Source: Thermosphaera sp.
GTDB lineage: Archaea; Thermoproteota; Thermoprotei_A; Sulfolobales; Desulfurococcaceae
Assembly: GCA_038827615.1 (NCBI GenBank)
Contig: JAWBNK010000001.1
Coordinates: 186,290-250,289, forward strand
Reading direction: 5' to 3'
Length of the DNA: 64,000 nucleotides
Both the position numbers and the translations under genes were made by a program. The first letter of the stretch is position 1. The number at the start of each line of letters is the position of its first letter. A model generated the notes under the pieces. It did no database searches. It worked only from the letters and a program-made list of their open reading frames with translations, and had not been told where the DNA came from. Shown here in pieces: positions 25,079 to 35,118 of the stretch.

Positions 25079-26896
25079 TTGTTCGGGAACTGGGGTAAAA
25101 TAATAAGGGTTGACATGTCTTCTAAAGAGATCAAAATAGAATCATGGGGCGAGGATATCGCTCGAAAGTGGCTAGGGAGCAGGGGCCTAGGGATTTATTT
25201 GATGTTGAAAGAAGTGGATCCGAGAGTCGAACCCCTATCCCCTGAGAACAAGCTAATAATTGCCGCGGGACCGTTAACAGGCACTTCGGCGCCGACAGCG
25301 TCTAGATACAACGTTATCACGAAGAGCCCTCTCACTGGGTACATTACTTACTCTAACTCCGGCGGTTACTGGGCGGCCGAGTTGAAGAAGGCGGGCTATG
25401 ATGCCGTCGTGGTTGAGGGTGCATCAGAGCAACCAATGTACTTGTATATCAATGACGACCATGTGGAGTTGAAGAGCGCCTCTTCAATCTGGGGCTTGAA
25501 GATGTCGGAGACTGAGGCGAGGATTAGGGAAGAACTGAAAACGCCAGACGCGAAAGTCCTGGGCATAGGACCTGCTGGGGAGAAACTCGTGAGGTTCGCC
25601 TCGATAATGAACGATGTCCACAGGGCTGCTGGACGAGCTGGCGTGGGAGCCGTCATGGGCTCTAAGAAGTTGAAAGCGATCGCCGTGAAGGGAACGAAGA
25701 CCATTCCAGTGGCGGACCGTGAAAAGTTCATGCTAGTCGTTAGAGAGAAGGTTGATAAGATACGTAAGGATCCGGTGGGCGGTGGCGGCCTCCCGAGATA
25801 TGGGACGTCAGTGCTGGTTAACATAATTAATGAGAACGGTTTATACCCGTACAAGAACTTCCAATACTTGCAGTACGAGCACGCTTACGAGCAGAGCGGT
25901 GAGGCGTTAGCGAAGAAGTATCTAGTTCGCAATAAACCATGCTACGCCTGCCCAATAGCGTGTGGAAGAGTGGTGAAACTGCCCACCGTAGGGGTCTCGG
26001 AGGGGCCGGAGTATGAGAGCATATGGGCGTTTGGATCAAACCTCGGAATCAACGACCTCGCCACAATAGTTGAGGCAAACCACATGGCGGACGAGTATGG
26101 GTTTGACACGATCTCCCTGGGCGGCACTCTAGCCACTCTCATGGAGCTCTACGAGAAGAAGCTCGTACCCGAGAGCGACCTAGGGGACTTCCCTCCGCCG
26201 AGGTTCGGGAACACCGAGGTATTGCACTACTATATCGAGAAAATAGCTGAGAGAAAAGGGATCGGGGACAAGCTCGCTGAGGGAGGTTACAGGCTTGCTA
26301 AGATGTACAATGGAGAGCAGTATTTCATGGGCGTGAAAAAGCTTGAACTACCGGCATACGATCCGAGAGGAGCTGAGGGGCATGGCCTGGGATACGCTAC
26401 AAACAACAGGGGTGGATGCCACATTAAAAACTACATGATCTCGCCGGAGATACTGGGGTATCCGAAGAAGATGGACCCCCACGACGTCTCCGATGAGAAG
26501 GTGAAAATGCTGATAACATTCCAGCACATCACCGCGTTAATAGACGCCGCCGGAGTGTGCCTGTTCTCGACCTTCGGCTTGTGGGCAGATGACTACAGGG
26601 ACCTCTTGAACGCCGCCATGGGCTGGAACCTATCTACTGAGGAGTATTTGAAGATCGGAGAGAGGATTTGGAACGCTGAGAGGTTATTCAACCTGAAGGC
26701 AGGGCTCAACCCGTTAGAGGAGGACACGTTGCCGAAGAGGTTCCTAGAGGAGCCCGCGCCTAATGGGCCGAATAAAGGCAGGACTGTAAGACTGAGAGAA
26801 ATGCTACCTAGATACTATGCGTTGCGCGGCTGGACTCCTGATGGCAGGATCCCCGAGAGCAAGTTAAGAGAATTAGACCTCATAGACTTTATTTAA
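25079..26896 (+). CDS. aor: Tungsten-containing aldehyde:ferredoxin oxidoreductase
   Basis: A 605-residue enzyme of the AOR family that oxidises aldehydes to acids with ferredoxin as acceptor, using tungstobispterin and one [4Fe-4S] cluster. The cluster ligands are in CYACPIACGR and the late DAAGVCLF. Pterin-binding regions include RAAGRAGVGAVMGSKKLKAI and the DPRGAEGHGLGYATNNRGGC stretch. The N-terminal GNWGKIIRVDMSS is standard, so the TTG at 25079 is chosen. The following MoaD-like and radical SAM genes are typical partners. Which paralogue (AOR, FOR, GOR or WOR) it is cannot be decided here. Confidence 0.92.
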   Translation: MFGNWGKIIRVDMSSKEIKIESWGEDIARKWLGSRGLGIYLMLKEVDPRVEPLSPENKLIIAAGPLTGTSAPTASRYNVITKSPLTGYITYSNSGGYWAAELKKAGYDAVVVEGASEQPMYLYINDDHVELKSASSIWGLKMSETEARIREELKTPDAKVLGIGPAGEKLVRFASIMNDVHRAAGRAGVGAVMGSKKLKAIAVKGTKTIPVADREKFMLVVREKVDKIRKDPVGGGGLPRYGTSVLVNIINENGLYPYKNFQYLQYEHAYEQSGEALAKKYLVRNKPCYACPIACGRVVKLPTVGVSEGPEYESIWAFGSNLGINDLATIVEANHMADEYGFDTISLGGTLATLMELYEKKLVPESDLGDFPPPRFGNTEVLHYYIEKIAERKGIGDKLAEGGYRLAKMYNGEQYFMGVKKLELPAYDPRGAEGHGLGYATNNRGGCHIKNYMISPEILGYPKKMDPHDVSDEKVKMLITFQHITALIDAAGVCLFSTFGLWADDYRDLLNAAMGWNLSTEEYLKIGERIWNAERLFNLKAGLNPLEEDTLPKRFLEEPAPNGPNKGRTVRLREMLPRYYALRGWTPDGRIPESKLRELDLIDFI

Positions 26897-26945
26897 TTTT
26901 TTATAAACATCCATCCTTAATCCATATCGCCCGGGGGCTGGGATT

Positions 26946-27203
26946 TTGGCGATAGAAATCCGGTTGTTCGCGACGCTAATAGACTTCGCTAAAACGAGGA
27001 GGCTTGTTTTAGATCTCGATGAGTCTACAATAGAGGATTTACTAAATATTCTGGACGCCAAGTTTCCAGGGTTTAAAGCGGAGCTCGAGCCAGGATATAT
27101 TATATTGGTCAACGGTTTCAACATAGAGCATCTTAATGGATTGAAGACCAAAGTGAAGAACGGCGACGTGGTCTCGATATTCCCGCCATCGGGCGGAGGT
27201 TAG
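26946..27203 (+). CDS. MoaD/ThiS-like sulfur-carrier protein
   Basis: An 85-residue beta-grasp protein ending in SGGG, the C-terminal glycine tail that is thiocarboxylated in MoaD. EIRLFATLIDFAKT is the typical first strand and helix, and GDVVSIFPPSGGG the typical end. Its position between the tungsten oxidoreductase and the radical SAM gene suggests a role in making the molybdopterin dithiolene. TTG start at 26946. The next gene starts 2 bases after its stop. Confidence 0.88.
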   Translation: MAIEIRLFATLIDFAKTRRLVLDLDESTIEDLLNILDAKFPGFKAELEPGYIILVNGFNIEHLNGLKTKVKNGDVVSIFPPSGGG

Positions 27204-27205
27204 CG

Positions 27206-28333
27206 TTGGGCGGTGACACGCTAGTGGAGTATAAGTTTCCCATGCGGGATGGAGAGGTCGTAATCAAGCCGAAGCCTGATCTGAGAATCCTGTACATCGA
27301 GCTAACCACTAGGTGCAACCTGGCATGCGATATGTGTTTCAAGCAACACTGGATGGACGTCGAAGGAGACATGGATCACAATCTATTCCTGAAAATCCTG
27401 GATGATGCCGGGCACCTTCCAGAGTTGAAGACGATAGTTTTCGGAGGTATAGGGGAGCCTACAGTTCACCCGCGATTCGAGGAGATGGTTTACGAAACAG
27501 TGGGCAGAGGTTACAAGTTGTATTTGACAACCAATGGGCTTTATCTAAGCGAGAAGAAGTTCACAGGGCTTGCCGAGATAGGCATTTCCGGGATATACTT
27601 CTCCATCGACGCCGTTCCCGGGGTTGAGACGAGATTTCAACACATCGGTTCAAGGAGAGTTGTCGAAATCATTAAATCCCTGGTTTCGTGGCGCAGGAGC
27701 AGGGGTAGTTATGAACCGCTTATAGGTGTGGAGGTCGTCGTGACGAGGGCTAACTACTCCATGATCCCTACTCTAGTGAGAAATCTAAGGGAGATTGGGG
27801 TAGATGAGGTGATAATCTCTAACATTCTACCGGTCTCACAAGCTCACAAGGATGACATAGTGTATGATGGTTCAACTGGTCATGAGGACCTGGTTGAGCG
27901 TTTAGAGAGCGAGGCGCACCGGGGAATTAAGATTAGAATCCCCAGCTTCCAAGTGAAGACAGAGAGGAAGTGTCTATTCGATGAGGCCAGGGCCGCAGTG
28001 ATTAGGTGGGACGGGGAGGTTGTTCCATGCTATAGATTCCTCCACACGTATAGGGAGTTCGTTCTCGGTCGGGAGAAGATCGTGAAGGCCCATTCGTTTG
28101 GAAATGTGAAGAACAGGAGCTTGAAGGATATATGGATGAGCAGGGAATACTCCTTCTTCCGATTCATCACGCGTAACTATTACTACCCGAGCTGCACCGA
28201 CTGCAGGCTGAACACTTCGTGCGATTTCGTTAACAGCACTGAGCAAGACTGCTGGGGCAACACCCCCTCGTGCGCCGACTGCCTCTGGGCAAGGGATATT
28301 GTCCAGTGCCCGATACCATCTGAGCCCTTTTGA
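27206..28333 (+). CDS. Radical SAM maturase associated with tungsten oxidoreductase
   Basis: A 375-residue radical SAM protein. CNLACDMC (CxxxCxxC) near residues 36-43 binds the SAM cluster, and FGGIGEPTVHP is the GGE-like SAM motif. The C-terminal half has a SPASM-like set of cysteines: CLFDEARAA, VVPCYRF, SCTDCRLNTSCDF, and CWGNTPSCADC. This matches the tungsten-cofactor oxidoreductase radical SAM maturase family known from AOR loci. The exact modification is not known. TTG start at 27206, with GGCGGAGG ahead of it. Confidence 0.88.
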   Translation: MGGDTLVEYKFPMRDGEVVIKPKPDLRILYIELTTRCNLACDMCFKQHWMDVEGDMDHNLFLKILDDAGHLPELKTIVFGGIGEPTVHPRFEEMVYETVGRGYKLYLTTNGLYLSEKKFTGLAEIGISGIYFSIDAVPGVETRFQHIGSRRVVEIIKSLVSWRRSRGSYEPLIGVEVVVTRANYSMIPTLVRNLREIGVDEVIISNILPVSQAHKDDIVYDGSTGHEDLVERLESEAHRGIKIRIPSFQVKTERKCLFDEARAAVIRWDGEVVPCYRFLHTYREFVLGREKIVKAHSFGNVKNRSLKDIWMSREYSFFRFITRNYYYPSCTDCRLNTSCDFVNSTEQDCWGNTPSCADCLWARDIVQCPIPSEPF

Positions 28334-29864: not shown

Positions 29865-30896
29865 CTAGTTGTTAGAGCGCCTCCTCCTCCGGAGCTCGTA
29901 GCCGATGAAGCCCGTAACAGGTATGAGGGATCCAGCGGCCACCAGCAACCCGGGCTCCGGGACAGGATAGTACGGCGGGGTCGTCGTGAAATATACATCG
30001 GCAAAATAATCCACAACTCCATCCCCTACTTCATCCCACGTGTTCGGTCCAGCAGTAGTCATGGCGTCCAAGGCGTCGCTGGTGTTATCCCCACCGATGT
30101 CCCATGCCTCGCCCCCGTTACCATTATAGTCGCTCCAGCCCCTCGCAGTTATCAAGGATAGCCTCAGGAAAAATACGCCGCCGCTGGGAACGTCGCCTAT
30201 CAACCCCCAGGGTATCCTGACCTCTACCGAGTTTCTTGACAAGTCGACTCCCATCAAGGCTCCCTCACCTGTGATGAAATTCCAGCTTTTGTCGACCAAG
30301 TAGAATATACCGCCCCAGTTGGATTGAAGGCCATCGGTCAACGCCGTCTTCCATTGACCACTATACCTGCTGTCGGCCAGGTTGACCACGACCTGGTAGT
30401 CCCATGCGGCATCGCTCGCTACTTTTGTTTCAGAGTAGCCGGCGAAAAATTCCGTGCCGCCAGTGCTCCCGTTTCGATTGATCGCTAACGCTATGAATGT
30501 GGCCCCGTTATCTCCGATGCTGAATCCGCTCGTGTCGTTGAGGATGAAGAGGAGGTAGAGAAACTCGCCGTCCCCGGTCACCCTGAACTGTAATAGGTCG
30601 GCGCGCTTGTCTGGAGAGGAGAAGTCTGTCCTCTCGTCGCCTCCGGCATCGCACCATATCCACTGGGGGACCCCGCCCACAGTGGAGTAATAGTATAAGC
30701 CGTACGCATTATCGACGGGTAATTCTGGACACGCGAAATCCCCCCAATCGCTTGGATCGCCGTCAATACTGATGTTCTGCGATATTCCCGCCGCGAGCGG
30801 CAGTGCCTCGATCGCTGGTGATGCCTGCGGGCTGGAAGCCAGCGTGAGGAATAGATGGAGGGCGATGGCTAGAACTAAGAATCTCCTACTCAGCAT
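29865..30896 (-). CDS. Secreted protein with CBM9/DOMON-like domain and PEP-CTERM-like tail
   Basis: A 343-residue exported protein. Residues 1-27 are a signal peptide (RRFLVLAIALHLFLTLASS, cleavage after an ASPA-like site). The mature part begins ISIDGDPSDWGDF, the usual start of extracellular CBM9/DOMON-like beta-sandwich domains. The C-terminus is a tripartite sorting-signal lookalike: VPEPG, a hydrophobic helix, then ELRRRRR. ATG at 30896 is preferred over longer readings because it opens the signal peptide and has AGGAGAGGT before it. It diverges from the aminotransferase gene at 31007. Confidence 0.78.
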   Translation of the reverse strand: MLSRRFLVLAIALHLFLTLASSPQASPAIEALPLAAGISQNISIDGDPSDWGDFACPELPVDNAYGLYYYSTVGGVPQWIWCDAGGDERTDFSSPDKRADLLQFRVTGDGEFLYLLFILNDTSGFSIGDNGATFIALAINRNGSTGGTEFFAGYSETKVASDAAWDYQVVVNLADSRYSGQWKTALTDGLQSNWGGIFYLVDKSWNFITGEGALMGVDLSRNSVEVRIPWGLIGDVPSGGVFFLRLSLITARGWSDYNGNGGEAWDIGGDNTSDALDAMTTAGPNTWDEVGDGVVDYFADVYFTTTPPYYPVPEPGLLVAAGSLIPVTGFIGYELRRRRRSNN

Positions 30897-31006
30897 ACCG
30901 GACCTCTCCTGATACAAAATTATCCTCTCTCGTATATAAACTTTGACCGTGTGAAAAGCGGGAAGTTTTATATTAAGAGATCGTTCATAATATAAGTGGT
31001 GTCGGA

Positions 31007-32143
31007 ATGCCAAGAGCCTTGTTGATGATTCCTGGTCCCTCGATAATAGATCCCCTAACTCTCCTCGACATGGCTCAGCCTACCATGAGTCACGTGGCGG
31101 CTGAATTCGATGAGATGCACAGGGAGTCTCAAGAACTGCTTAAGAAGGTCTTTGGGACACAGGGAAAAGTAGTCGTCATACCGGGCAGTGGCACGGCTGG
31201 ACTCGAGCTCGCCGTAAGGTCTTCCGTGAGGCGTGGAGAAAAAGTACTCGTCTTAAAGACAGGGTACTTCGGAGACTACTTGGTGGAGGGAGCTAGGAGG
31301 ATTGGAGCTGAGGTTGACGTGGTTCAATCCCCGCTGGGCAGAGGGTTCGATGGAGGCAGGGTTGAGGCGATTCTAGATGAGAAGGAATACGATGTTGTAA
31401 TGCTCCAGCATGTTGAAACCTCAGTATCGGTGGCTAACCATGTTGGAGAAGTGGCGAGGGTTGCAAAGAAGCGTGGTATCAGAGTAGTAGTGGATGGAAT
31501 AGCCTCCGTAGGGGGAATGGAGATGAGAATGGATGAGTGGGGAGTTGATGTATGCATAACTGGCTCGCAGAAGGGGCTGGCCGTGCCCCCGGGGCTCGCG
31601 TTGGTTGCTTACTCTAAAGACTTCGCCCCAATAACCGATAATGAAACACTGTACTTCAACATTACCAAGCTCTTGAAGGAGATGGAGTCCACGAGAAACT
31701 ACTATATTACCCCTGCAGTGAACATGATCTACGCGCTCTACTCTTCGCTCAAGAGGATTGAACGCGAGGGCGTTGAAAACAGGTTCAGAAGGCACAGAAT
31801 CCTTGCGCAGGCTGTTCAGAGAGGAGTCGAGTCCCTTGGATTGAAACTCGTTGCAGAGGAGCCTTACAGGGCCCACACGGTGACAGCTGTTTACTTGCCT
31901 GAAGGCGTCGAATGGGCAAGATTTTACAGCGAGATGCGTTCAAGGAATGTTGAGATTGCAGGAGGGTTGGGTGAGCTGAGAGGCAGGGTCTTCAGGATTG
32001 GGCATATGGGAGAGGTGAACGCGAACGACGTGATAGCGACTCTAGCAGCAGTGGAGAGGAGCCTGGTTAAAACTGGGTACAGGGTTGAGCTTGGAGCATC
32101 TGTTAGAGCGGCTCAGGAGATACTGGCCTTACATGATTACTAG
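31007..32143 (+). CDS. Class V aminotransferase (alanine/serine-glyoxylate type)
   Basis: A 378-residue PLP enzyme of class V. MIPGPSIIDP opens it as in serine-pyruvate/alanine-glyoxylate aminotransferases; PGSGTAGLELAV binds the cofactor phosphate, QHVETSV and D163 in VVVDGIASVGG stack and hold the ring, and the Schiff-base lysine is K189 in GSQKGLAVPPG. The ATG at 31007 follows a TATA-like TTTTATATTAA by about 40 bases. It is convergent with a SerA-like dehydrogenase, so it may act as phosphoserine or serine aminotransferase; this is inferred from context. Confidence 0.88.
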   Translation: MPRALLMIPGPSIIDPLTLLDMAQPTMSHVAAEFDEMHRESQELLKKVFGTQGKVVVIPGSGTAGLELAVRSSVRRGEKVLVLKTGYFGDYLVEGARRIGAEVDVVQSPLGRGFDGGRVEAILDEKEYDVVMLQHVETSVSVANHVGEVARVAKKRGIRVVVDGIASVGGMEMRMDEWGVDVCITGSQKGLAVPPGLALVAYSKDFAPITDNETLYFNITKLLKEMESTRNYYITPAVNMIYALYSSLKRIEREGVENRFRRHRILAQAVQRGVESLGLKLVAEEPYRAHTVTAVYLPEGVEWARFYSEMRSRNVEIAGGLGELRGRVFRIGHMGEVNANDVIATLAAVERSLVKTGYRVELGASVRAAQEILALHDY

Positions 32144-32171
32144 ATTGAAAAACGCGTTGCAAGAGCCAACT

Positions 32172-33131
32172 CTATTTTTTATTTACAACAGTATCCGGTA
32201 GACGCCCCTCCTTGACATATTTCACAACAGATTCTGCGACAAACCTCGAAGTCTCCGCTAGAGCCTCCCACGAGAACCCGCCTAAGTGAGGGGTAAGTAT
32301 TACGTTGTCAAGACCTATCAGCGGGCTGTCGAGAGGAAGGGGTTCTTTCTCAAAGACGTCGAGGGCAGCATATATTTCACCGGTTTTCAGCCTCTCAATC
32401 AAGGCTTCTTCATCCACTATCGGCCCTCTTGAAGTGTTGACTATTAACGCTCCCTTCTTAACCTTAAATACTCTCTCCCTGTTGATCAGACCGCGGGTTT
32501 CCGGCGTGAGTGCAATAGTTAGCGCAATTACATCGCACGATTCAATCAATTGATCAAGCTCCATGCGAGAGATCTCCAACCCGTGCTCTACCTCGGGCTT
32601 AACTTTTCTATCCCAGTAGTATACTTCTGCGCCGAAAGGCTTCAGCCTTCTAGCCAACCCAGCGCCGATTCTGCCCATTCCAACTATTCCGATTCGTTTT
32701 CCGCGGAGAACGTTTCCAATCAAGCCTGGGGGAGTACCGCCTACCCATTTCTTCTCCCTGATGTACTTATCTCCTTTGACGATGTTCCTGTAGTGGGCGA
32801 GTATTAGAGCCATTATATGGTCTGCGACAGCTTCGGCGATGTAGTCGGGAGCATTTGCAACATATATGCCTCTCCTAGAGGCTTCCGCTAAATCTACTTT
32901 ATCGAGTCCGGAGCCTTGAACCATGATGAGCTTAAGCTGTTTTCCCAGGTCTATTATTGACTTGTCGACAACGTTCCATGGTGCTGCCACTAATACGGTT
33001 GCATCCAATAATTCTTTCTCAAGCCAATCCCTTGGGGCCTCCCTCCCCGGGTATATTGTGAAGTTTACACCGTGGCTTCTAAGTACTTCGACGCCTGCTC
33101 TGTGAGGCTCGAACATGTATACGATTTTCAT
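32172..33131 (-). CDS. serA: D-3-phosphoglycerate dehydrogenase-like 2-hydroxyacid dehydrogenase
   Basis: A 319-residue NAD-dependent D-isomer dehydrogenase. The nucleotide loop is GIVGMGRIGAGLARR, the catalytic Arg is in NTSRGPIVDEEAL, a Glu lies in FEKEPLP, and His in LTPHLGGFSWEA. It lacks the C-terminal ACT domain of long SerA, as many archaeal short forms do. It is convergent with the class V aminotransferase, 28 bases apart. Oxidation of 3-phosphoglycerate is the best guess; hydroxypyruvate or glyoxylate reduction is an alternative. Confidence 0.85.
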   Translation of the reverse strand: MKIVYMFEPHRAGVEVLRSHGVNFTIYPGREAPRDWLEKELLDATVLVAAPWNVVDKSIIDLGKQLKLIMVQGSGLDKVDLAEASRRGIYVANAPDYIAEAVADHIMALILAHYRNIVKGDKYIREKKWVGGTPPGLIGNVLRGKRIGIVGMGRIGAGLARRLKPFGAEVYYWDRKVKPEVEHGLEISRMELDQLIESCDVIALTIALTPETRGLINRERVFKVKKGALIVNTSRGPIVDEEALIERLKTGEIYAALDVFEKEPLPLDSPLIGLDNVILTPHLGGFSWEALAETSRFVAESVVKYVKEGRLPDTVVNKK

Positions 33132-33200: not shown

Positions 33201-33875
33201 CTACTTCTTTGGAGTTTTCTTGACCGTTAATTCTTTAACAACAATACCGTGGAATTTTAGAAACTCTTCCAGATTTCCCAGTGAGAGGTCGTAAGCGACT
33301 GATACGAGGTTTTCTTTCGGGGACGCCATTATCAACGTTACCGGGAGGCTGGTCCTACCGGCGAGTTCGATCACCTTGTCGTATAGTTTTTCATCGCTAT
33401 AGTAGATTAAGTAATCGTAGTAACCTTTAAAGTTCTTCACAAACAACTGGTTCAACCTATCGCCAGCGGAGTGTTTTAAAACGGCTTTATCAATCACGCT
33501 GTTCTTCTTAACCAGGTAGACCTCGCCTGGCACAGTGCTGTCAGCCGGCTTAACAGCTATCTCGAGCCTGTCCTTTCTCCCAGCTATTTTGGCTATCGGA
33601 TAGTAGATCAGAGAGTGCCTAGGAACAGTTGTCACCAGCACGTATACTTGATGCTTGCCCGGAAGGACGTATCTAGCCTTATATCCCACTAGGTATCCTA
33701 GCCACTGATACTCCTTGGATGATGGGTTGAAGTGTTTCTCTAGTAGAATGGTTGTATCTCTAAGAAAAACGATCAGTTTTCGTCGAAATCGGAAGAACCA
33801 TATCGCGGACGCCGCTCCGAGAACGGCTAATACGATTATGATTCCATATATTATGAGGAACTCATCGAGGCTCAT
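33201..33875 (-). CDS. Membrane-anchored protein of the ArsA-like operon, unknown function
   Basis: A 224-residue protein with one N-terminal helix (residues 6-27) followed by RFRRK, giving a cytoplasmic C-terminal domain. That domain alternates strands and helices (HQVYVLVTTVPRHSLIYYPIAKIAG; DYLIYYSDEKLYDKV) without a known motif. Its ATG overlaps the stop of the ArsA-like gene (ATGA), so translation is coupled. A role with the ATPase at the membrane is plausible but unproven. Confidence 0.72.
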   Translation of the reverse strand: MSLDEFLIIYGIIIVLAVLGAASAIWFFRFRRKLIVFLRDTTILLEKHFNPSSKEYQWLGYLVGYKARYVLPGKHQVYVLVTTVPRHSLIYYPIAKIAGRKDRLEIAVKPADSTVPGEVYLVKKNSVIDKAVLKHSAGDRLNQLFVKNFKGYYDYLIYYSDEKLYDKVIELAGRTSLPVTLIMASPKENLVSVAYDLSLGNLEEFLKFHGIVVKELTVKKTPKK

Positions 33876-34822
33876 GAAACCACCTTCACTAAATTCTCTA
33901 GTTCAGCGATATCTTCAAGGCTTTCAGTCGGCTTCCCCAAGTAGCTTATCGACAGCAACGGAATGTTGTAAGAGGAGAGCTCCGACATTATTGCTTCCTG
34001 TTGCTCCCTAAGCCCCATTCTATCTGCGACCTCTGCCGGCAGTATCTTGTTTAATACGAGTATCTTAGGACTAGTATTCAACTTTAGTCTAAGGAAGTTG
34101 ATGGTCTCCTTGAGCTCGTAGACGGGGAGGGGTTCTGGCGTTGCTACGATCGTGTATGATGTTTTAGATGAATCTTTGAGAACATTGACTAGGGTTGAAT
34201 ACTTCTCCCTCATCTCTGTTAGGAGCGTGAGCGCCTTATCTTTGACCTCGGGTTCGCGTCCAAGAGTCTTTGCGATCGCATACTTGAGCGATAATATCTT
34301 ACCCCTGACTTCGATGAGTTTTTCTATCCATATCTCGTAGAGCTTGGGCAAGTATAGAGTTCTCAGCGTTACTCCGGTGGGGGGAGTATCGATCACGATG
34401 AACTCGTATTTGACGTGCTCGTACGTTTCTTGAAGAATCCTCAAAAAGACCTCCTCTTCAACCCCCGGCATGTATTTCACAACGTCTACCACATTCTCTA
34501 TGTTTAAAACTTTCAAAGATGGAAGCATATCCTTAATCATGCTTGCATGCCGGTTCAATTCTCGAGCTACTTCCATATCCACATCGAGTTGTTTTAGGAC
34601 CAGACCCTCTCTAATCCGAGCCTCTCTACCCAAGATCTCCTCGCCAACGTACCTTACTAGGTGTTTAGCCGGATCTAGACTCAGCACCAAAGTGTTTCCA
34701 ATCCTCGACAAGATGAGCCCGAATAGTAGTGAAACTGTTGTTTTACCCACGCCTCCCTTGCCTATGACGAATACCAAGTGGGGGCAACACTCGTATGGTG
34801 ATAGAAGGTTTAGCAGACTCAT
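33872..34822 (-). CDS. ArsA/Get3-like ATPase
   Basis: A 316-residue P-loop ATPase of the ArsA/Get3 group. The deviant Walker A is GKGGVGKTT, switch I includes SLDPAKHLVRYVG, and switch II is VIDTPPTGVTLRTLYLP. No tandem second ATPase domain and no arsenic-binding Cys set is visible, so it is closer to single-domain Get3-type proteins that handle tail-anchored proteins. The ATG at 34822 overlaps the upstream stop (TGATG); GTG codons at 34828 and 34825 are alternatives. Confidence 0.85.
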   Translation of the reverse strand: MSLLNLLSPYECCPHLVFVIGKGGVGKTTVSLLFGLILSRIGNTLVLSLDPAKHLVRYVGEEILGREARIREGLVLKQLDVDMEVARELNRHASMIKDMLPSLKVLNIENVVDVVKYMPGVEEEVFLRILQETYEHVKYEFIVIDTPPTGVTLRTLYLPKLYEIWIEKLIEVRGKILSLKYAIAKTLGREPEVKDKALTLLTEMREKYSTLVNVLKDSSKTSYTIVATPEPLPVYELKETINFLRLKLNTSPKILVLNKILPAEVADRMGLREQQEAIMSELSSYNIPLLSISYLGKPTESLEDIAELENLVKVVS

Positions 34823-35118
34823 CACCACTCGCCTCCCAACGCAGCCATTAGATCTCCTAAAACGTCCTCTCCCTTCACTCCTCTCGTCTCAAGGATGCTT
34901 ATCTCATCCTTAACAGTGCCCAGGATTTCTAAGCTGAGCAGTGCTGGGGTTGTCTTTACTCCTATTAGCGGTCCAAAAAGAATCGTTAAAAACGCGTTCT
35001 CCAGTTCAACGTACTCGATCTCCAGGGCTTCGACGCTCTGCTCTAGTATGGCTTGGTTTAAACCCTTGATGAATAGGAAAAAATTCATGATAATTAGCTT
35101 CAACCTATCCAGGATCAT
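34822..35118 (-). CDS. Small protein leading the ArsA-like operon, unknown function
   Basis: A 98-residue, mildly hydrophobic protein (NAFLTILFGPLIGVKTTPALLSLEIL) ending in a charged helical tail. No family recognised. The ATG at 35118 has GGTGTG upstream; GTG at 35127 is possible. Its stop overlaps the start of the ArsA-like gene, making it the first cistron of a three-gene operon. Confidence 0.65.
   Translation of the reverse strand: MILDRLKLIIMNFFLFIKGLNQAILEQSVEALEIEYVELENAFLTILFGPLIGVKTTPALLSLEILGTVKDEISILETRGVKGEDVLGDLMAALGGEW

Follow-up and report, generated by a model that had tools for sequence, protein, structure and literature searches.

A PEP-CTERM-like tail on a Thermosphaera surface protein and a probable archaeosortase-type sorting system in the Crenarchaeota

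The window analysed here is a 64,000 nt stretch of a Thermosphaera sp. genome (positions 186,290 to 250,289 of contig JAWBNK010000001.1), and the gene of interest lies on its reverse strand at 29865..30896. It encodes a 343 aa surface protein with a PEP-CTERM-like tail and runs from an ATG at 30896-30894 to a TAA at 29865-29867, exact in frame, strand and coordinates; orthologues are present in two genomes of the same genus (G001 and G002, 56% and 51% identity) and in one of another genus (G035). The start context is good, with a Shine-Dalgarno-like GGAGAGG (30903..30909, reverse strand) 6 nt before the ATG and an archaeal TATA-box-like TTTATATA (30933..30940, reverse strand) 36 nt upstream, both identified from the sequence, and the TTG start at 31013 given in the ORF list is unnecessary. 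A class V aminotransferase gene is divergent from the surface-protein gene and is followed by a D-2-hydroxyacid dehydrogenase gene convergent with it (31007-33131); beyond these the gene of an ArsA/Get3-type ATPase overlaps another whose 224-aa membrane product matches no Pfam family (33201-34828, reverse strand), and on the other side consecutive forward-strand genes encode an aldehyde ferredoxin oxidoreductase, a ThiS/MoaD-like protein and a SPASM radical-SAM protein (25079-28333).

The N-terminus reads MLSRRFLVLAIALHLFLTLASSPQASPA, a signal peptide of approximately residues 1-28 (30813..30896, reverse strand), with a hydropathy peak over residues 1-19 (KD 1.72) and a modelled helix at residues 2-20, and ISIDGDPSDW opens the folded domain. 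AlphaFold (pLDDT 85.2) predicts a beta-sandwich, which spans approximately residues 42-305 (29982..30773, reverse strand) and for which Foldseek suggests a CBM9/glucodextranase-C (DOMON-like) fold, the nearest solved folds being the CBM9 of a Thermotoga xylanase (1i82, E 6.3e-4), glucodextranase (1ug9) and the starch-binding Sas6/CBM74 (7uwv), matches with E-values of 6e-4 to 1e-2 and low TM scores. PF09985 is weakly detected in three homologues (best E 0.0035), and homologues further afield frequently form one domain of a far larger protein, in some cases with a PENQ or PENG variant at the end. It is reasonable, on the modelled fold, to regard the domain as probably glycan-binding; the Thermosphaera sp. 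strain 3507 grows on polysaccharides (PMC7729421).

The C-terminus carries a tripartite tail, PVPEPG-LLVAAGSLIPVTGFIGYEL-RRRRR-SNN in full (C-terminal part YYPVPEPGLLVAAGSLIPVTGFIGYELRRRRRSNN), which comprises the sorting motif VPEPG (residues 312-316, 29949..29963), 19 hydrophobic residues (residues 317-335, 29892..29948; KD19 1.57, with a modelled helix at 315-342) and the basic cluster RRRRR (residues 336-340, 29877..29891), all on the reverse strand. The genome has 22 CCNGARCCNGG sites, and in one alone, that of this tail, does the coded PEPG lead into a hydrophobic stretch with a basic C-terminus; the tail scores E 3.7e-10 against a profile in which it is itself one of 15 seeds. PEP is invariant and the helix variable in these 15 aligned tails; they were picked for having PEP, and the evidential weight therefore lies on the orthologues. 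There, in two congeners and another genus, [VI]PEP[GY], the transmembrane segment and the basic cluster are kept while the transmembrane sequence has diverged (G001, IPEPG...LLRRRK; G002, VPEPG...LLKRRR; G035, IPEPY...FFTRRFRRF). The hydrophobic segment is marginal in the window copy, whose KD19 of 1.57 against 2.35-2.59 in these orthologues makes it the weakest tail helix of the four compared. At the TIGR02595 cut-off of 16 bits the window protein has no match, whereas the orthologues in G002 (21.5 bits) and G035 (16 bits with neighbours) pass. The features of a PEP-CTERM substrate are all present, namely a PEP motif, a transmembrane helix (marginal in this copy), a basic cluster and a signal peptide, and the tail, signal peptide and IDGDPSDW beta-sandwich start described in the initial annotation are confirmed at the level of sequence, with the motif kept in orthologues.

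A second clear substrate was not found in this genome by way of the 22 PEPG-coding sites, TIGR02595 or profile A2; the weaker matches that were examined lack PEP, and two ordinary C-terminal anchors consist of Thr/Gly-rich stalks without it. Three TIGR02595 matches were rejected as substrates, two (L072 and L077) because they do not close a coding frame, one (L074) because it lies on the opposite strand of a surface-protein gene. The product of that gene (L074 2-2470, contig C2 at ~120.2-122.7 kb) is a repeat-rich surface protein of at least 822 aa with a coiled coil and a C-terminal transmembrane anchor without PEP.

Every genome of the genus has one tailed protein; in the three congeners, as in G035, the single strong tail match is this same surface protein. 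Seven related genomes have several tailed proteins each (G003, G024, G039, G049, G059, G116 and G227), with many in G003, G010, G016 and G024. G010 and G016 encode many large surface proteins that end in PAPEPPILPIILLAAILLFIIIKKRK or something close to it, the longest frames reaching ~2,200 aa. Near-identical PAPEPPILP...KKRK-type tails occur on giant proteins (frames of 800-2,200 aa), four in G016 and three in G010. TIGR02595 was above cut-off in five of eight sortase-bearing genomes, in one of the five (G001) via a non-coding frame. The earlier expectation of other tailed proteins was thus borne out by TIGR02595 and A2 in related genera, where there are many, and not in the genome itself, where none is convincing. 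The system looks dedicated to one target there, because the tail occurs on a single protein; dedicated, single-target variants of the PEP-CTERM type are known.

A PF09721 search of the genome returned one gene (E 4.8e-12; 43.7-44.8 bits against a cut-off of 25.7), encoding a 556 aa archaeosortase outside the window on contig C1 at ~384.9-386.6 kb (L001 649-2319, reverse strand), ~170 kb from the surface-protein gene. Near-invariant over 22 homologues are C199, G201, N248, R251 and H272, and likewise the motif H419-x-W421-x-x-C424-L-x-x-Q428 of the C-terminal soluble domain; in the AlphaFold model (pLDDT 83, pTM 0.85) the Cys (xCxG), the Arg (GNxxR) and the His lie within membrane helices or close to them. 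The initial annotation had pointed to an enzyme with these three residues, and had named the joint absence of a sortase and of other tailed proteins as what would speak against it; the sortase was found, once, with its residues conserved, which supports a sorting system of the exosortase/archaeosortase type in this crenarchaeon. At TIGR04178 it scores 22.7 bits, just under the cut-off of 23, which most tested relatives exceed. Among the 11 sortases tested, none reached the cut-off of a named NCBIfam subfamily, all being far below (XrtA, B, D, P, S, T, V, W, X and ArtC), and the enzyme therefore appears to be a new form within the exosortase/archaeosortase superfamily. Sortase profile A4 found full-length matches in a phylum sample from the same order only, other members of the phylum matching mostly over the first ~300 positions.

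An EpsI (DUF3485) identity for the C-terminal domain was rejected: the resemblance is limited to HxWxxC, and PF11984 was not detected in this genome or 10 relatives, save one E 0.2 match elsewhere in G005. A PDB fold search with this domain gave weak START/DcrB-like matches only (best E 3.4e-3), and neither a sequence search for solved relatives nor a plasmid search for homologues found any. In G043 the PF09721 match is to a protein that is short and of another kind.

The sortase gene sits in a conserved operon (contig C1, 378138-386742; L143 139-8743), which has counterparts in relatives and here runs in the gene order sortase, MoxR, ~225 aa, ~236 aa, ~90 aa, ~603 aa, DUF4350 and DUF58. Domain matches were obtained for the MoxR AAA+ protein (PF07726, E 2e-42) and DUF4350 (PF14258, E 1.5e-8), and weakly for DUF58 (E 0.004), and the ~603-aa DUF4129-like membrane protein matches DUF4129 weakly in 4 of 12 members. 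The sortase comes first at ten loci, those of the three congeners, G035, G009, G033, G014, G019, G027 and G054, and follows DUF58 at five, in G005, G048, G003 (copy b), G030 and G039; four loci, in G003 (copy a), G016, G049 and G059, have other or partial orders, and one sortase of G003, two of G010 and a degenerate one in G020 lie outside the operon. That the pairing is kept with the sortase on either side suggests that the two are linked in function. Of the relatives with a sortase, 20/20 have the 603-aa protein (G010 and G043 by weak matches), vs 9/41 of the others (p 1.6e-9). Versions of the operon without a sortase exist in G011, G029 and G032, and the module can therefore act without one. 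MoxR-DUF58-DUF4350-DUF4129 operons are a general pattern, with which the crenarchaeal operon shares a single gene run of an AAA_3 ATPase, DUF4350 and, by weak matches, DUF58 and DUF4129; it differs in having an archaeosortase as a core gene, a pairing for which we found no precedent in the literature searched.

Tail and sortase co-occur between genomes. Among 61 relatives, 20 had PF09721 above cut-off, 13 had a tail at E <= 0.01 and 12 had both, such that a sortase was present in 12/13 tail-bearing genomes vs 8/48 others (p 8e-7, ignoring shared ancestry). Across 229 genomes of the class, with a tail cut-off of E <= 1e-4, the figures were 35 with a sortase, 17 with a tail and 14 with both, i.e. 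a sortase in 14/17 tail-bearing vs 21/212 tail-less genomes (Fisher 1.4e-10, uncorrected for relatedness); with the profile-seed genomes excluded, 7/10 tail-bearing genomes had a sortase (p 2.3e-5, again ignoring shared ancestry). Like the tail and its conservation, this genome-level association, the operon and the conserved triad of the sortase are established by sequence comparison. Tails without a detected sortase occur in G012, G171 and G227, which are incomplete genomes (83, 93 and 63%), and intact sortases without an A2-type tail in G009, G019, G027 and G033. Three homologues have lost the catalytic Cys, which is Tyr in G014 (L058/L165), Arg in G020 (L061/L166, with His to Ser, the copy outside the operon) and Ser in G054 (L200, with His to Met), and none of these three genomes has a tail match at E <= 0.01. 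The Cys-less sortases resemble natural knock-outs paired with tail absence, although three cases are few and suggestive only.

The combination of a tripartite tail with an exosortase-type enzyme is of a kind already known, and many such genes may already be labelled ‘exosortase/archaeosortase family protein’ by automatic annotation. The same tail and the same Cys/Arg/His motifs define the PEP-CTERM/exosortase system of Gram-negative bacteria (EpsH, XrtA; PF09721, TIGR02602, TIGR02595), from which the crenarchaeal enzyme differs in its length of ~550-600 aa, its conserved C-terminal extracytoplasmic domain (HxWxxCLxxQ) and in reaching no named Xrt cut-off, and the Thermosphaera system in its adjacent MoxR-DUF58-DUF4350 operon and its one substrate in the genome. 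XrtD (VPLPA-CTERM) shares the two-part layout of core and C-terminal domain, and for the G003 sortase L045 the alignment covers most of the XrtD model, but the score is 36 bits against a cut-off of 400 and the EpsI domain was not detected. What is known of archaeosortases comes chiefly from haloarchaea and methanogens; in Methanosarcina PssA/PssD adjoin artA, where the crenarchaeal sortase has MoxR. The ArtA/PGF-CTERM system of Haloferax is likewise archaeal, with a tripartite tail and a Cys-type membrane peptidase, yet its motif is PGF rather than PEP, and the scans of the crenarchaeal sortases gave no match to an ArtA model up to E 1. ArtA processes PGF-tailed proteins, and the C-terminus so formed receives its lipid only when ArtA is present (PMC7157517). 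PEP-like archaeal motifs are found in ArtC/PEF-CTERM and in thaumarchaeal PEFG-CTERM; the ArtC model (TIGR03762) matches relative G005 at 32 bits, far under its cut-off of 100. The initial annotation had placed this tail type mostly in bacteria and euryarchaea, which leaves out the PEFG-CTERM proteins of Nitrosopumilus (PMC6593220). In the literature searched, to which the survey of Haft et al. 2012 did not belong, we found no description of a crenarchaeal subtype that combines an enzyme architecture of its own with a PEP tail and a MoxR operon.

By analogy with ArtA (PMC7157517), we infer that the surface protein would be exported via Sec through its signal peptide, after which the hydrophobic segment and arginines at its C-terminus would hold it transiently in the membrane. 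The membrane archaeosortase would recognise the (V/I)PEP(G) motif and, through Cys199, Arg251 and His272, cut at or near it, removing the helix and arginines; the new C-terminus would then be attached to a molecule of the envelope, which, going by ArtA of Haloferax, is probably a lipid, and the CBM9-like domain, which probably binds glycans, would stay anchored on the outside of the cell. We consider it likely that the archaeosortase of this genome recognises and processes the PEP tail in this way, and the Crenarchaeota probably have PEP-type sorting too, which has been described mainly in bacteria and other archaea. The MoxR/DUF58/DUF4350/DUF4129-like operon may assemble or supply the acceptor. 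A more tentative proposal, which we would not yet favour over its negation, is a crenarchaeal sorting machine in which the archaeosortase works with this module, the ATPase complex preparing or placing the acceptor or substrate, to give a covalently anchored glycan-binding coat protein in an archaeon without a visible S-layer.

The tail might instead be an ordinary C-terminal transmembrane anchor, a stop-transfer helix with positive-inside arginines that is never cut, with PEP as a proline-rich spacer and the sortase acting elsewhere or non-functional. Sulfolobus AmyA has an unprocessed hydrophobic domain and charged tail only, with no sorting motif and no sortase found (PMC5023256), and the Thermosphaera genome contains two or more unrelated anchors of the type and a single PEP protein. 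The two other anchors examined lack PEP, however, whilst in the aligned tails PEP is invariant and the helix is what varies, and full-length motif matches occur in 13 genomes with a sortase and one without (p 1.4e-7); we therefore regard an uncut anchor as unlikely. Chance, or a composition effect of a Pro-rich C-terminus, could be invoked for a motif that is short and found once per genome in Thermosphaera, but its conservation in orthologues of ~50-55% identity and in another genus, along with the cohorts of near-identical tails in relatives, makes this scarcely credible.

The sortase and MoxR operon could also serve other substrates, with a different tail or an extracytoplasmic polymer, the PEP tail being a relic of a wider PEP system. 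The four genomes with intact sortases and no recognisable PEP tail, the three in which the operon persists without a sortase, and the weak helix of the window copy would all fit. Against this, the recurrence of the same protein as the single strong tail match in the three congeners and G035 points to selection on the pair, and we judge a relic tail improbable, more so than an uncut anchor.

Processing of the PEP tail by the archaeosortase thus remains our preferred reading. Electron microscopy of T. aggregans revealed an amorphous coat and no regular S-layer (PMC3035292), and a sortase-tail pair in the cultivable Thermosphaera would help explain how surface proteins are anchored where no S-layer is visible. 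The sortase-MoxR operon offers a testable clue to the role of MoxR/DUF58/DUF4350 modules. The relatives with Cys-less sortases can serve as natural knock-outs. Outside the genus, G003 and G010 each encode three paralogous archaeosortases (L045, L065 and L067; L046, L064 and L066), and the sortase-bearing contigs C52 and C118 of G003 also encode a tail protein or a homologue of the surface protein.
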